A stretch of 28,816 nucleotides of DNA from a virus. The notes below the pieces were generated by a model that searched no databases, was not told the origin of the DNA, and worked only from the letters and a program-made list of their open reading frames with translations. Below are positions 1 through 28,796 of this stretch, piece after piece. The position numbers and the translations under genes are program-made. The stretch lies in the IMG/VR virus record IMGVR_UViG_3300007539_003240, positions 1-28,816 of that record; one strand, written 5' to 3'. The stretch's first letter is position 1. Each line of letters starts with the position of its first letter.

Positions 1-466
1 CAGCTTCGTCCTTAGTAACGATTCCTTTACTAGCCGCTCCCTCTAGGAAAGCTTTCTTTACTTTCGCCATCAAGTCAGCCTTCTTCTTGCCGATAGCTTT
101 GCGAAGATCGTCAGCTTGCTGTAAGTCGAATCCTGCCAGCTTTTGTGCGATACGCATAGCTTGCTCTTGATAAACCAAAACGCCATAGGTGGGCTTTAGA
201 ATATCTTCTAGCGACTCGTGAAGATAGTCAACTTCTTCTTTAAGCCACTTGCGATCCACAAAACGTTGGGTCATAGTTTTGCCACGGTCAACAGCCTTTA
301 AGCAGCCGGGACGAATGATAGCAATCAAAGCTGCCAGTTCTTCCAAGTTTTCGGGAGCCAGCTTTTTAGACCAGCTTCGCCCTAGATTGCTCTCCAGTTG
401 AAACACACCCTTGGTAAGCCCCTCTCGAAACAGCTCCCAAGTTTTATCGTCATTATAATCAATCAT
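1..466 (-). CDS. dnaE: DNA polymerase III alpha chain, C-terminal part (split DnaE, runs off the window)
   Basis: Second piece of a bacterial-type replicative polymerase. The first 155 codons are seen; the rest lies before base 1. It starts MIDYNDDKTWELF and carries the conserved alpha-subunit strings GVFQLES (residues about 20-26), ALIAIIRPG, YGVLVYQEQAM and the ADDLRKAIGKKK block. In E. coli DnaE these form the fingers that hold the incoming nucleotide and template. The palm and all three catalytic Asp residues are in the separate upstream gene at 1127-2755. The ATG at 464-466 overlaps the TGA of the exonuclease gene (463-465) as ATGA, so translation is probably coupled. No intein C-terminal sequence (HN-Cys/Ser) precedes the polymerase homology. 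The beta-clamp and OB regions would be expected further on but are not visible. Family identity is sure; that the pieces assemble into one enzyme is inference. Confidence 0.93.
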   Translation of the reverse strand, partial: MIDYNDDKTWELFREGLTKGVFQLESNLGRSWSKKLAPENLEELAALIAIIRPGCLKAVDRGKTMTQRFVDRKWLKEEVDYLHESLEDILKPTYGVLVYQEQAMRIAQKLAGFDLQQADDLRKAIGKKKADLMAKVKKAFLEGAASKGIVTKDEA

Positions 467-1137
467 ACAAAATAACCTTTAGCAAAAGTCTTCTCAATCT
501 TTAGGTTGCGGTAAATCTGCCGCCTAGTTTTTTGGTAAGCAATAAATAGGTTAGCAGTATCTTTAACGTCTTGCATGGCATCGTGAGCATTATCAGCACT
601 CATCCTGTGACGCTCTCGGTTTGCATCCATGCTGATCGACTTGACATCAGGATCACCCTCTGTCCACAAGAATTGATCATCCATCACATCAATCTTGTAG
701 ATCTTGTTAAACAGTTTGTTTTGCTTCCTGTCTGCATCCCAATACATGTTATGCTCTTCGCATAATCTATTTACAATAGGCAGATCATATCCGATGATGT
801 TGTAGCCACAAGGAACCGGAGCGAAAAACTGAGTGCCCTTCCAATTAAACTTATTTACAAACTCACAGAAAGACTCCCATACAGCTTTTGGTAGAGGTGC
901 TTTTGCCAGCATCTCTCTAGTCTGGCCGGTAACTTTTAAAGCACCTTCCTCCAGCGGGCCAACGCCAGCAGCGATAGCTTCATCGTCGTCGATAATTGGT
1001 CGCATATAAGACTGGAATTCCCCTTTGGGTTTGAAGTTTCTGCCGTCCAAAGCTAATGCAGCAATCTGCGTAGGTTGGCAAGTTAGTGGGTTACGTCCAC
1101 CAGTTTCAAAGTCAAATACAATAATATCACGCTTCAT
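463..1137 (-). CDS. DnaQ-like 3'-5' exonuclease (DEDDh)
   Basis: Predicted proofreading exonuclease of the DEDD superfamily. Motif Exo I is FDFETGG near residue 10 (Asp and Glu metal ligands). Exo II is the YNIIGYDLPIVN block near residue 113. Exo III is HDAMQDVKD near residue 185, with the His-x4-Asp spacing of the DEDDh class seen in the DnaQ epsilon subunit, RNase T and exonuclease I. ATG at 1137 is preferred over TTG at 1140 because an AAGGA sequence sits at proper distance. The gene overlaps the upstream polymerase piece by 11 bases and the downstream piece by 4 (ATGA), so it lies exactly between the two halves of dnaE. In bacteria epsilon binds the polymerase PHP domain; here the PHP metal site looks degenerate, so proofreading probably rests on this protein. 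An unrelated trimming role cannot be excluded. Confidence 0.92.
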   Translation of the reverse strand: MKRDIIVFDFETGGRNPLTCQPTQIAALALDGRNFKPKGEFQSYMRPIIDDDEAIAAGVGPLEEGALKVTGQTREMLAKAPLPKAVWESFCEFVNKFNWKGTQFFAPVPCGYNIIGYDLPIVNRLCEEHNMYWDADRKQNKLFNKIYKIDVMDDQFLWTEGDPDVKSISMDANRERHRMSADNAHDAMQDVKDTANLFIAYQKTRRQIYRNLKIEKTFAKGYFV

Positions 1138-2755
1138 CAATAAGTTCCTTTACATACATAAGTTTATCTAGTAAGTTAATCGCAAGAACATCAAACTTAA
1201 CATGTCCTAACGCTTCCAAGTCAGCCATCTCAAGTCCAGCGATTTTCTCACTTGAACTCTTGGAGTCTACCATCGGGCAGACCAAGTGCAGAGGCTTTGC
1301 TGAAATCACAACTCCTGCTGCATGTTTTCCTTGTGTCTTAAATGTTCCTTCGATTTCAATAGCTTGACGGAAGTATTCTGCATAGTCACCGTCAAGTTCG
1401 CCACGGTCATTAATTTGGCAATAATCAATAAGATCGTCTGAGTTGTTGATCAAAGCCCATCTGATAATAGATCGCTCGTCATCATCCATTAAAGATAGTT
1501 GGTCGGAAATGGCTGCTTCGTCGGGGATGCTCTTGGTGATATGATTCATCTCGCCAAAGCCGCAAGCCTCATTTACACGCAGCACTTCTTTTATCGCACT
1601 TCGTCCTTGCAGTCTTCCAAATGTCAACATCTGGCTTACTCTGTCATGTCCATACTTATCTTTTAAATACTCAATGATCTCGTCACGCTTGCCGCCCGGA
1701 ACATCAATGTCAATATCTGGTAGAGAAATATGATCCTTGGTATTACGACCAGCATTGTAAAATCTTTCAAACAGTAGGTCAAACTCGATAGGGTCAATCT
1801 GAGTAATACCAAGCAAGTAAGAGATCAGGCAACCAGCAGCAGAGCCTCGTCCCGGTCCTGCCATCCAGCCGTTTCGGTTTACAATAAAGTCTAGAATATC
1901 CCAAACAATTAGGAAGTAGCCAAACAAGTCAGCATCTTCAATAACAGAGAACTCGTGACGGAAGCGATCCCCGTATTCTTTCTTTGATTCTGGGTCTTTT
2001 ACTTTTTCATGCAGTAATCTCATCCACCCCTCGCGTGCTAAGTGCCGTAGGTAGTCGCCCTCAGACTCACCTTTTGGGGTTTGAAACTCTGGTAGCATTG
2101 GTTGATTTAATATGTTGTAGTTTTCACACTTATGAAATATGTCTTCAAAGCAATCCATTCTTGGATCTTCGATAACCAACCTAGCTACTTCTTGTCGGTC
2201 TTTTAGATACCAATCATTGGATTCAAAGAATCTTTGAAACTCTCCTGCGTTGGAAATATCTTTCTTGACTTTTGGTATTGTAGTCTTGAGTCCAGAGCAG
2301 ATCAAGATTCTATGCAGGTCGGCTTGAGATTTTTCTACATAGTAAGTGTCTGTAAAGGCGTCAGACTTTTCATAGAAGTCATCGCCCGAGATTGGCGATA
2401 AAAACTCAGAGACAGCAACCGCAATTAGATTGCCACGCCCACAAAGAGTGCTTAGTAGATAACTGTCTACTTCACCATTTTCTATACTGGAAACAAGCTG
2501 GATAAGCTCTAGCCAGCCAGTGTGGTTTTTGGCGAACAACGTATAATCGTCAAAGGCACAGCCGATGATTGGCTTGATATCATGTTTTACGCAAGCCTGA
2601 TAGAATGATACAGCACCAGAGATAGACTTGTAATCAGCAATGCCACAAGCAGAGTAGGAATTATCAGATGCTTTCTTTGCTATTTCTGATGGTTTTGAGA
2701 AAGCTCTCTGTAGAGAATAGTGCGTATAGTTACAAAGCGGAAACCAGTTTTTCAT
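1127..2755 (-). CDS. dnaE: DNA polymerase III alpha chain, N-terminal part (PHP plus palm)
   Basis: First piece of the split replicative polymerase, 542 residues. Residues 1-70 are a PHP domain with a poor metal motif: NYTHYSL stands where active relatives have a His-x-His pair. The palm follows: WMAGPGRGSAAG near 298, the catalytic pair in LPDIDID (Asp347 and Asp349, matching E. coli Asp401 and Asp403), MLTFGRLQGRSAI near 376, GKHAAGVVIS near 476, and KFDVL with Asp522 (E. coli Asp555). The protein stops 20 residues later, before the fingers, which are encoded at 1-466. ATG at 2755 is chosen because TTGAGGATTAAC gives a GAGG six bases upstream; the longer TTG start lacks this. It is the first gene of an operon with its own promoter and a structured leader. 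All catalytic Asp residues are kept, so it is not a decayed relic. Confidence 0.94.
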   Translation of the reverse strand: MKNWFPLCNYTHYSLQRAFSKPSEIAKKASDNSYSACGIADYKSISGAVSFYQACVKHDIKPIIGCAFDDYTLFAKNHTGWLELIQLVSSIENGEVDSYLLSTLCGRGNLIAVAVSEFLSPISGDDFYEKSDAFTDTYYVEKSQADLHRILICSGLKTTIPKVKKDISNAGEFQRFFESNDWYLKDRQEVARLVIEDPRMDCFEDIFHKCENYNILNQPMLPEFQTPKGESEGDYLRHLAREGWMRLLHEKVKDPESKKEYGDRFRHEFSVIEDADLFGYFLIVWDILDFIVNRNGWMAGPGRGSAAGCLISYLLGITQIDPIEFDLLFERFYNAGRNTKDHISLPDIDIDVPGGKRDEIIEYLKDKYGHDRVSQMLTFGRLQGRSAIKEVLRVNEACGFGEMNHITKSIPDEAAISDQLSLMDDDERSIIRWALINNSDDLIDYCQINDRGELDGDYAEYFRQAIEIEGTFKTQGKHAAGVVISAKPLHLVCPMVDSKSSSEKIAGLEMADLEALGHVKFDVLAINLLDKLMYVKELIDEA

Positions 2756-2787
2756 GTTAATCCTCAAATAATAAGACTCAAAAAGGT

Positions 2788-2817
2788 GCGGTTTTTAACT
2801 GGAACCGCTAACCAGTT
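2788..2817 (-). promoter_or_regulatory. Candidate H-type RNA pseudoknot in the polymerase leader
   Basis: In the transcript, AACTGG (2817-2812) pairs with CCAGTT (2802-2797). The GCGGTT in its loop (2808-2803) pairs with AACCGC (2793-2788). The loops are TTA and AAA, giving two perfect 6-bp stems in 30 nt. The second stem alone is followed by ACCTTTTT, so it could also act as a weak terminator competing with the first stem. It ends about 32 nt before the ATG. Folding is read by eye; function is inference. Confidence 0.5.
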
Positions 2818-2825
2818 TCATTTCA

Positions 2826-2849
2826 AACTCAATAGGGAGATATTGAGTT
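2826..2849 (-). promoter_or_regulatory. 5'-end hairpin of the polymerase transcript
   Basis: Perfect 9-bp inverted repeat AACTCAATA / TATTGAGTT with a 6-nt loop. It begins about where transcription from the promoter at 2857-2885 should start, so the mRNA would open with this hairpin. Hairpins in this place often protect mRNA from 5'-end-dependent decay; that role here is inference. Confidence 0.5.
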
Positions 2850-2856
2850 CTATTAT

Positions 2857-2885
2857 ATTATAGTTTAGAAACTAACATTTTGCAA
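2857..2885 (-). promoter_or_regulatory. Sigma-70-type promoter for the polymerase operon
   Basis: -35 TTGCAA, 17-base spacer, -10 TATAAT, continuing TATAATATAATAG. It belongs to the window's repeated promoter family (ACTTGC at -35, TATAATATARTA at -10). The AGAATTCACTTGCAAAA stretch around the -35 nearly matches the copy at 28668-28696. Confidence 0.8.
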
Positions 2886-9679: not shown

Positions 9680-9708
9680 ATTATAGTCTGCAAACTCAAA
9701 TTTCGCAA
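9680..9708 (-). promoter_or_regulatory. Sigma-70-type promoter for the helicase-primase operon
   Basis: -35 TTGCGA, 17-base spacer ending TTTGCAGAC, -10 TATAAT continuing TATAATATAATAG. The spacer end plus -10 is identical to the promoter at 20300-20328. It lies about 30 bases upstream of the helicase ATG. Confidence 0.8.
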
Positions 9709-13560: not shown

Positions 13561-13742
13561 TTTCTTCCCTCCATTATATACCTGTGTTGTTGTTGAGGAG
13601 TCATTTTATTGATCTCCTTATGGGTAGCAGATCCATACTTGGGGTTTTGATACCAAGATTTAATTGTAGGGTTCGCTTCGCTCTTTTTATGAGCTTCTTC
13701 TTCTAGCTTGTTTTTATTTACTTTAGAATTGTGATCCGCTAG
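13557..13742 (-). pseudogene. 61-codon coding-like ORF without a usual start codon
   Basis: The frame is open from the TAA at 13743-13745 to a TGA at 13557-13559 that forms an ATGA overlap with the next gene. The reading (LADHNSKVNKNK at the start, SWYQNPKYGSATHK in the middle, PQQQHRYIMEGRK at the end) looks like real protein and fits the tight packing. No ATG, GTG or TTG occurs before codon 47. The first codon is CTA, just inside the FmdB stop. The sequence ACTAGCGG would become ACTAATGGCGG, a TAATG junction of the kind used elsewhere here, by adding just ATG. So the gene may have lost its start codon, or it uses a non-standard start. A short 15-residue peptide from the ATG at 13604 (AAGGAG upstream) is another option. 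Confidence 0.5.
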
Positions 13743-13915
13743 TTACCAACGGTATCAATGGTGTTTACTTTAGCCATGATACCGCCAGTAACAACTCTAA
13801 ATAATTCATCCTTTCCGCACTCCGGGCATGTAGTCAAAGCATCGTCGTGAAATGATTGCTGCACGTCGATAAGTTGATGTTCACACCCAGAGCATTCGTA
13901 GTCATATTTCGGCAT
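13739..13915 (-). CDS. FmdB-family zinc-ribbon protein
   Basis: 58 residues. Start MPKYDYECSGCEH gives the family's opening aromatic strand and first Cys pair (Cys8, Cys11). LTTCPECGKDELFRVV gives the second pair (Cys30, Cys33). This is the layout of FmdB-type small zinc ribbons, found across bacteria and in some large phages. Members have been linked to transcription regulation, but the molecular role is not settled. The ATG directly follows the phoH TAA (TAAATG), and the TAG stop lies at 13739-13741. The short C-terminal extension (GGIMAKVNTIDTVGN) is not part of the zinc site. Confidence 0.82.
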   Translation of the reverse strand: MPKYDYECSGCEHQLIDVQQSFHDDALTTCPECGKDELFRVVTGGIMAKVNTIDTVGN

Positions 13916-14593
13916 TTAGTTCTCCAGTGCGTTTAGCACATCTCCAATGATACCATTCCTTTGTATGTCTTCAATCCCTAAGTGACATACCGCAACGCCA
14001 CGCACGTTGCTTAATTTATCCATACAAATTTCTAATCCACTCCTACCCCTTAGATCGTTTTGGTTAATATCACCATTAATAATTACTTTAGAGTTTTCAC
14101 CCATTCGAGTGATAAACATCTTAATTTGTTCTAAGGTGCAGTTTTGAGCCTCGTCTAGAATCATGTATGAGTTATGAAAAGTAGAACCTCTCATAACTTC
14201 CAAGGGTTTGTACTGGATGGCTCCTTCATTAGCGTACAAACCGTAATATGCTTGGCTTAAAAAATATTTTAGATTTTCTTGCATAGGTAATAAATATGGG
14301 GCGATCTTTTCCCCAAGCTCACCCGGAAGCGAGCCGATATCTTTTCCTGTGCAGACCAAAGGTCTGGTTACAATTATCTGCTCTAAATAACCTTTATGTA
14401 AGTGGTTAGCTGCGATGCCTGCTGGAATAAAAGATTTTCCTGTTCCAGAAGGGCCAGAGCAAATAATGATATCGTTTTCTATGATAGATCTAATATACTC
14501 TTTCTGATTAGGTGTTTTAGCCTCCAATGGGGTAATACGTTGTTTGTTGCGATCACGTTTCATCTCACGCTTCAGTTTTCGATTAGGCTTCAT
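13916..14593 (-). CDS. phoH: PhoH-like P-loop ATPase
   Basis: 225 residues. N-terminus basic (RKLKREMKRDRNKQR). TPNQKEYIRSI precedes Walker A GPSGTGKS at 47-54. IIVTRPLVCTG, GSLPGELGEKIAPYL and a Walker B-like MILDEAQNCT follow near 143, then VIINGDINQNDL near 170. This is the standard order of PhoH proteins, a helicase-like NTPase family very common in environmental phages. The cellular role is not firmly known; RNA or DNA metabolism under phosphate stress has been proposed. There is no toxin-like PIN partner. It is followed immediately by the FmdB-type gene. Confidence 0.92.
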   Translation of the reverse strand: MKPNRKLKREMKRDRNKQRITPLEAKTPNQKEYIRSIIENDIIICSGPSGTGKSFIPAGIAANHLHKGYLEQIIVTRPLVCTGKDIGSLPGELGEKIAPYLLPMQENLKYFLSQAYYGLYANEGAIQYKPLEVMRGSTFHNSYMILDEAQNCTLEQIKMFITRMGENSKVIINGDINQNDLRGRSGLEICMDKLSNVRGVAVCHLGIEDIQRNGIIGDVLNALEN

Positions 14594-27714: not shown

Positions 27715-28077
27715 TTAGGCAGTGGGAATTGATCCCATAGACTCCATTTCTTCACGACTGCGAATCATGGCAGGATCGTAACCAAGCGAGATTTTGTCTG
27801 CCATGATAGCGGCACTCATTCTTGGTCGTCCTTCCTTGTCTTCGTATTCGTCAATCTTGAGTTCGCCTTCTACAGCGACAACTCGCCCTTTGACCAACAT
27901 GTCGTTAAGCGTCTCGGCAGTTTTACCAAAACATAGAACATTGATAAACAGCGTGCTATCGTTTCGACGATTGTTTACAGCGAGACGAAACTTAGACATT
28001 GAGGTTCCTGCTTTTGTTGTACTCAGAACTGCGTCTTTAGTTAAACGTCCTGCTAAATGTGATGAATTAAAGTTCAT
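27715..28077 (-). CDS. ssb: Single-stranded DNA-binding protein
   Basis: 120 residues. OB-fold of bacterial SSB type: NSSHLAGRLTKDAVL at 4-18, SKFRLAVNNRR near 28, TLFINVLCFGKTAETL near 42, LVKGRVVAVEGELKIDEY near 61 and GRPRMSAAIMADKISLG near 83. It is shorter than E. coli SSB. The usual Gly-rich linker and acidic DIPF tail are missing; the end reads MESMGSIPTA. So it may not recruit partners in the host's way. It coats single-stranded DNA at the phage fork. ATG at 28077 lies two bases after the upstream stop. Confidence 0.88.
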   Translation of the reverse strand: MNFNSSHLAGRLTKDAVLSTTKAGTSMSKFRLAVNNRRNDSTLFINVLCFGKTAETLNDMLVKGRVVAVEGELKIDEYEDKEGRPRMSAAIMADKISLGYDPAMIRSREEMESMGSIPTA

Positions 28078-28724: not shown

Positions 28725-28796
28725 TAGAGCCGGTAGGATTTGCACCTACGTATCGCACTTTATGAGAGTGTTGCTTTACTCATCAGCCACGGCTCC
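28725..28796 (-). tRNA. tRNA with CAT anticodon (Met or Ile2 type), unusual elbow
   Basis: Acceptor GGAGCCG / CGGCTCT (one G-T pair), a 3-bp D stem GCT / AGC, an anticodon stem CACT / AGTG with an A-C mismatch on top, loop CTCATAA (anticodon CAT), a 5-nt variable loop, and T stem GTAGG / CCTAC. The T loop is TGCAAAT rather than TTCAAAT, and the D loop lacks the usual GG pair. No CCA is encoded. Met elongator and lysidine-modified Ile are both possible readings of CAT. Confidence 0.7.

Follow-up and report, generated by a model that had tools for sequence, protein, structure and literature searches.

The best-supported reading of a compact, 30-nt H-type pseudoknot in the leader of a phage DNA polymerase operon is that of a portable, cis-acting translational element, and the pseudoknot is very probably a real, conserved RNA element. 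It recurs in related phages, with paired changes that preserve the fold, and stands in front of a different gene in one of them, which points to a small, movable element that probably controls translation, rather than to a switch of the polymerase only. The leader as a whole would be modular, with a replaceable stem protecting the 5' end and a portable pseudoknot acting on translation, an account that we prefer at somewhat less than an even chance.

The operon and its leader

The window, that is, the whole stretch of DNA analysed, is a viral contig of 28.8 kb (28,816 nt), in which the genes of interest lie on the minus strand, from which the pseudoknot leader is also transcribed. The position of the promoter places the likely first transcribed nucleotide (the predicted +1) at G2850, which gives a leader of 95 nt, made up of a hairpin (2850-2825), a 7-nt linker, the pseudoknot (2817-2788), and 32 nt to the ATG. 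The extended sequence of this promoter (2885-2857) is found again at positions 9708 and 28696 of the window. The features of the leader and operon are as follows.

2857 to 2885, minus strand: sigma-70-type promoter, TTGCAA-17-TATAAT, with 10 of 12 consensus matches
2825 to 2850, minus strand: 5'-terminal hairpin, GAACUCAAUA-UCUCCC-UAUUGAGUUU, with nine Watson-Crick pairs, a terminal G.U and the loop UCUCCC
2788 to 2817, minus strand: predicted H-type pseudoknot, with stem S1 at 2817-2812/2802-2797, loop L1 (UUA) at 2811-2809, stem S2 at 2808-2803/2793-2788 and loop L3 (AAA) at 2796-2794
2780 to 2784, minus strand: U5 run, 3 nt after S2, which opens an A+U-rich unstructured stretch and is not terminator-like in a terminator scan
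2761 to 2765, minus strand: Shine-Dalgarno sequence GAGGA, within the unstructured tail
1127 to 2755, minus strand: N-terminal half of DnaE, operon gene 1 (PHP domain and Pol III alpha palm; PF02811, PF07733), with its ATG at 2755-2753
463 to 1137, minus strand: DEDD exonuclease, operon gene 2 (PF00929), overlapping the N-terminal half of DnaE by a few bases
1 to 466, minus strand: start of the C-terminal half of DnaE, operon gene 3, overlapping the exonuclease stop and truncated by the window end

The polymerase is thus split in two genes with the DEDD exonuclease between them, all joined by stop/start overlaps (window 1-2755, minus strand), and the break falls just after the FDVL motif, which we take to hold the third catalytic Asp, as in the DnaE of E. 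coli. The order of the three genes is common to the related contigs L101 and L102, and the full C-terminal half lies at 4269-5828 of L102, with 97% identity across the part inside the window. In L003 (1680-2930), an insertion that contains an intein-like or homing-type open frame separates the conserved stretches GPGRG and SAGG of a related dnaE. Among sequenced genomes, the closest DnaE relatives reach approximately 31% identity, and the assignment of a host failed. The window also contains an SSB gene (27715-28077) and a zinc-ribbon gene after phoH (13561-13917, minus strand), which is apparently frameshifted near 13740, the first frame ending at GGTAACTAG and the homologous sequence resuming in another frame.

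Sequence and geometry of the pseudoknot

The sequence-only reading had described two interlocked, perfect 6-bp stems, and these were found exactly at 2817-2788, as S1 (AACTGG/CCAGTT), L1 (TTA), S2 (GCGGTT/AACCGC) and L3 (AAA), with the second loop (L2) absent. Perfect 6+6 bp knots of such geometry occur 0.037 times per 28.8-kb strand in dinucleotide-shuffled windows, and the chance of one in a 95-nt leader is approximately 1e-4 by the same kind of shuffling. A scan of 1.30 Mb of related phage DNA for such knots with perfect stems of at least 6 bp recovered only the window pseudoknot and its own reverse complement. When the leader was folded with its first codons, just one of 200 shuffles did better (z -3.1), and nearest-neighbour sums, an estimate that excludes loop penalties, put the knot, with its stems coaxially stacked, at -22 to -25 kcal/mol, against -2.6 to -8.6 kcal/mol for either hairpin alone.

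The length of S1 is 6, 5 and 4 bp in the window, in the relative L001 and in the contig L007, respectively, which marks it as the weaker stem. It reaches 6 bp in the window alone, the conserved portion being 4-5 bp and the third loop effectively UUAAA. With an S1 of 4 bp (L007) or 5 bp (L001), the third loop has 5 or 4 nt, an arrangement sterically easier than the 6-bp stem and 3-nt loop read in the window. Two other pairings were discarded. The pairing of a pseudoknot strand with dnaE codons 3-6 (AACTGG), seen in the nested fold, is impossible in L001 or L007, and hairpins formed from the U run that would sequester the ribosome-binding site (RBS) are no better than shuffles.

Conservation and probable mobility

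Loci of relatives were fetched through their DnaE, and comparison of these leaders, which had been proposed as a search for compensatory changes in both stems, returned one compensatory pair in each. The relative concerned is L001 (the same contig as L009 and L102), whose DnaE is 88% identical to that of the window, and which has the same promoter and a pseudoknot at the orthologous place (TAATGGTTAGCGGCTCCATTTAAAAGCCGC). Between positions 3 and 30, its sequence departs from that of the window at four sites, which make up both sides of one S1 pair (C-G to A-U) and of one S2 pair (U-A to C-G). A pattern scan of IMG/VR recovered a further example in L007 and L008, two near-identical contigs in which the core is identical to that of the window (CTGGTTAGCGGTTCCAGTTAAAAACCGC) over 28 nt and the flanks are unrelated. 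The pseudoknot there heads not dnaE but a zinc-ribbon gene located after phoH (Zn_ribbon_8, at an E of 8e-7, below the cut-off of Pfam), in a phage whose DnaE is 51% identical to that of the window and whose own dnaE leader is plain and carries no pseudoknot. Only three distinct pseudoknot sequences are thus known (window, L001 and L007/L008), and their loops, UUA and UUAAA, do not vary in a single letter. When shuffles were scored by their pair counts, 59 of 500 attained the observed values.

The sharing of one core by the window and L007, and the small number of examples, would also be expected if a short, functionless stretch had recently been duplicated by chance or transferred horizontally. 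This is highly unlikely, given that the flanks are unrelated and that all four core changes in L001 are compensatory, a placement for which the probability is 4.5e-4 with four random substitutions. The same overlapping inverted repeats (AACTGG-N9-CCAGTT and GCGGTT-N9-AACCGC) might instead be an operator bound as duplex DNA, where symmetric half-site changes would likewise appear compensatory and a position downstream of the promoter would be natural. It is against this explanation, which we consider highly improbable, that two unrelated pairs of half-sites have altered their letters and remained complementary, that the invariant loops lie off the symmetry, and that the position follows the AUG rather than the promoter.

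The element is real but rare. When IMG/VR was scanned with the loops and four S2 pairs fixed and S1 left free, both stems paired only in the three known cases among the 10 contigs recovered, and the other seven, which are unrelated and never pair in both stems, served as negative controls. Two further relaxed pattern scans returned no other real copy. A covariance search had also been suggested, and when 27 phage records were searched with a model, no true copy emerged beyond those known, most DnaE relatives being without the pseudoknot. There was no copy in the sister phage L002, with a DnaE identity of 91%, nor in plasmids, and the exact pattern was not matched in 84,980 bacterial and archaeal genomes. 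The absence of the pseudoknot from L002 and most DnaE relatives indicates that it is not essential for dnaE.

Three other matches were set aside as chance. A pattern match in L010 pairs wrongly, and two model matches in G008 (20 and 15 bits) lie within a coding open reading frame and do not have S1. The sole match among GenBank phages covers 25 nt of Streptomyces phage Patelgo (L011:1499-1525, E 0.07), where GGTTAGCGGTTCCATAAAAACCGC lies between a gene and that of tRNA-Phe; only the second stem forms, and since S1 cannot, the match is probably fortuitous.

Placement with respect to the start codon

In the three examples, 32, 32 and 35 nt separate the end of the pseudoknot from the AUG, and 33, 64 and 67 nt separate the +1 from the pseudoknot. 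A constant distance to the AUG, with a variable distance to the promoter, suggests an action on translation, and not on transcription. The intervening tail of 32-35 nt is A+U-rich and no more structured than shuffled sequences, its minimum free energy being weaker than the shuffle mean.

In transcriptional terms, S2 and the U run would form a terminator, prevented by S1 or a bound factor, or the RNA polymerase would be modified as by put of phage HK022, an antiterminator RNA that renders the enzyme resistant to terminators. The location soon after the promoter, the overlap of S1 and S2 as hairpins, and the terminator-like S2 and U5 of L001 (GCCGCC-UUUUU) are compatible with attenuation, which the sequence-only reading had offered on the grounds of a T5 following the second stem. 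The T5 is present (2784-2780), and begins 3 nt past the stem rather than directly. The terminator scan rejects S2, in which a 9-nt loop and this gap take the place of the GC-rich stem, short loop and immediate U run of an intrinsic terminator. The adjacency of stem and U run is not conserved, the run being broken in L007 (AUCUUUAUUU), and it is the distance to the AUG, not that to the promoter, that is fixed. Attenuation or antitermination is therefore quite improbable.

A small-molecule riboswitch of the compact H-type kind deserves consideration for the size of the element, its A-rich third loop, UUA first loop and invariant loop letters, and its position in an mRNA leader, much of which recalls preQ1-I. 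Membership of preQ1-I or SAM-II, raised in the sequence-only reading, was not borne out by Rfam, in which a tRNA at 28725 is the sole match of the window at gathering thresholds. The window has no meaningful match, and its leader no riboswitch family, even at E<=10. The pseudoknot differs from preQ1-I, furthermore, in the absence of the second loop, where such aptamers hold a pocket, and in a 6-bp second stem that lies away from the Shine-Dalgarno sequence, which the knot does not occlude. The downstream genes (dnaE and the zinc-ribbon gene) suggest no shared ligand, and a riboswitch is considered very unlikely.

The 5'-terminal hairpin

The 9-bp hairpin that had been noticed at the likely first transcribed base is present at 2850-2825, and, given the predicted +1, its pairing includes the very first base of the transcript, with a pairing probability of 0.86-1.0 at +1 to +5. 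This resembles the 5'-terminal stem-loops of the ompA/papA type, which impede conversion by RppH and stabilise the mRNA (PMC3997798); the likeness is that of a 5' end paired from the +1, whereas the sequences are unrelated. The hairpin sequence is not conserved in the relatives compared, in which other stems occupy its position, namely, another RNA in L001 and two larger RNAs in L002. Most structured leaders of the phage group have a stem that starts at the predicted +1 or within a few nt of it, and those without structure are short; in L007 and L106, the stem starts at least 2 nt after the +1 or is weakly predicted. Stems at or near the +1 in most structured leaders fit the protection of the 5' end, and suggest that the 5' module is replaceable.

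The interchange of unrelated stems at or near the +1, the known stabilising role of 5' hairpins (PMC3997798), and the sporadic occurrence of the pseudoknot would all suit a purely passive structure, in which hairpin and pseudoknot merely protect the mRNA or insulate the RBS, with no regulator involved. Passive structure would not require invariant loop letters (UUA, UUAAA), however, nor the same stem sequence across phages whose DnaE proteins are 51% identical, and this explanation is, on the whole, unlikely.

A second leader RNA in the same phage group

The leader module of L001 is found again upstream of dnaB in that phage and in the zinc-ribbon leaders of L106, L108 and L110; it also precedes an additional gene in L108 (353-405), and recurs weakly in L002. 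This RNA, named here for its 8 x 8-loop, has seven distinct copies (L102:8532-8594 and L102:15438-15500, both on the minus strand, L108:2403-2465, L108:353-405, L110:2012-2074, L106:2402-2465 and L103:7587-7650), placed before dnaE, dnaB, zinc-ribbon genes and another gene. It is built of an outer stem, a G-rich stem of 7 bp, an internal loop, a hairpin and two paired AGGTYA repeats; in most copies, the internal loop measures 8 x 8 nt and the hairpin is closed by a pentaloop. Six of its 19 pairs have changed on both sides, with 12 such cells against 4.3 expected, a value reached in 0 of 500 shuffles; these counts call for caution, since alignment A6 had itself been adjusted to the model. The RNA has no Rfam match (E<=10 for the L102 region, gathering thresholds for L103, L106, L108 and L110), and the window contains no copy of it.

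Other leaders have features of their own. Those of dnaE at L017:2527-2600, L019:3013-3090 and L034:7902-7980 have a different structure, with a basal stem of 7-8 bp and a 7-bp hairpin, to which L017 adds a symmetric 10 x 10 internal loop. A TTGA-N7..10-ATTGAAGGA motif is repeated upstream of most dnaE starts in L014-L036, even where the leader is not structured.

Comparison with known systems and proposed mechanism

In the operator of T4 gene 32, a 28-nt knot nucleates the binding of gp32, and the protein then extends along an A+U-rich RBS that has no structure (PMC3014915, PMC535899). The present leader is similar to that of T4, T2 and RB69, in that the sequence and covariation point to an H-type pseudoknot of approximately 28 nt, with stems able to stack coaxially, and to a downstream A+U-rich stretch, free of structure, that covers the RBS, in a phage that has an SSB gene. 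It differs in its sequence and loop sizes, in a U-rich tail instead of UUAAA repeats, and in the gene that it heads, the single window copy preceding dnaE, and the other example a zinc-ribbon gene, rather than ssb. As the pseudoknot does not head ssb, it is not classed as a member of the gene 32 operators. The likeness to the gene 43 operator of T4 and RB69 is limited to the placing of a structured RNA some 30-40 nt ahead of the start codon of a phage DNA polymerase gene. Here there is a pseudoknot, and not a hairpin with a UAAC-type loop (the loop of the 5' hairpin is UCUCCC), the polymerase is a DnaE (Pol III alpha) and not of family B, and the element also precedes a non-polymerase gene.

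Of the T4-type leader control that had been proposed from the sequence alone, the likeness of the layout to the gene 32 leader is supported, and a polymerase-specific switch of the gp43 type is not. The same pseudoknot heads a zinc-ribbon gene in a phage without a copy in its dnaE leader, the sister phage L002 has no copy, and the movement of the element between genes makes polymerase autoregulation unlikely. As two phages have it ahead of dnaE and another has it ahead of a zinc-ribbon gene, the regulator is probably not the polymerase.

Under the modular account, the first module would be whichever stem starts at the +1 or close to it (in the window, a hairpin of 10 bp), which would most likely guard the 5' end of the mRNA from 5'-end-dependent decay and be interchangeable. 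The second would be the portable 30-nt pseudoknot, 32-35 nt upstream of the AUG, with the unstructured A+U-rich RBS stretch that follows. Most likely it would affect how the first gene is translated: an RNA-binding protein encoded by the phage would recognise the pseudoknot, or nucleate there, and would then cover the RBS stretch, as T4 gp32 does, and repress translation. The SSB (27715-28077) is a candidate regulator, in trans; the promoter of its own operon (28696) has no pseudoknot, so that classical autoregulation of the gp32 type does not apply. With three distinct examples, this mechanism is something that we infer, and a translational operator is put forward only tentatively.

It is also conceivable, though doubtful, that the pseudoknot and the 8 x 8-loop RNA are two undescribed families of leader RNA, interchangeable modules in a small RNA-tag regulon of one phage group, in which several operons would be jointly controlled after transcription by a trans-acting phage factor.

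According to a review of T4 from 2010, the pseudoknot of gene 32 was perhaps unique among viruses in serving translational autoregulation (PMC3014915). The present element is short enough for a direct reporter test, and if the translational reading is true, a second, unrelated phage lineage would possess a conserved 30-nt leader pseudoknot that moves between operons, and such knots would be portable regulatory tags.
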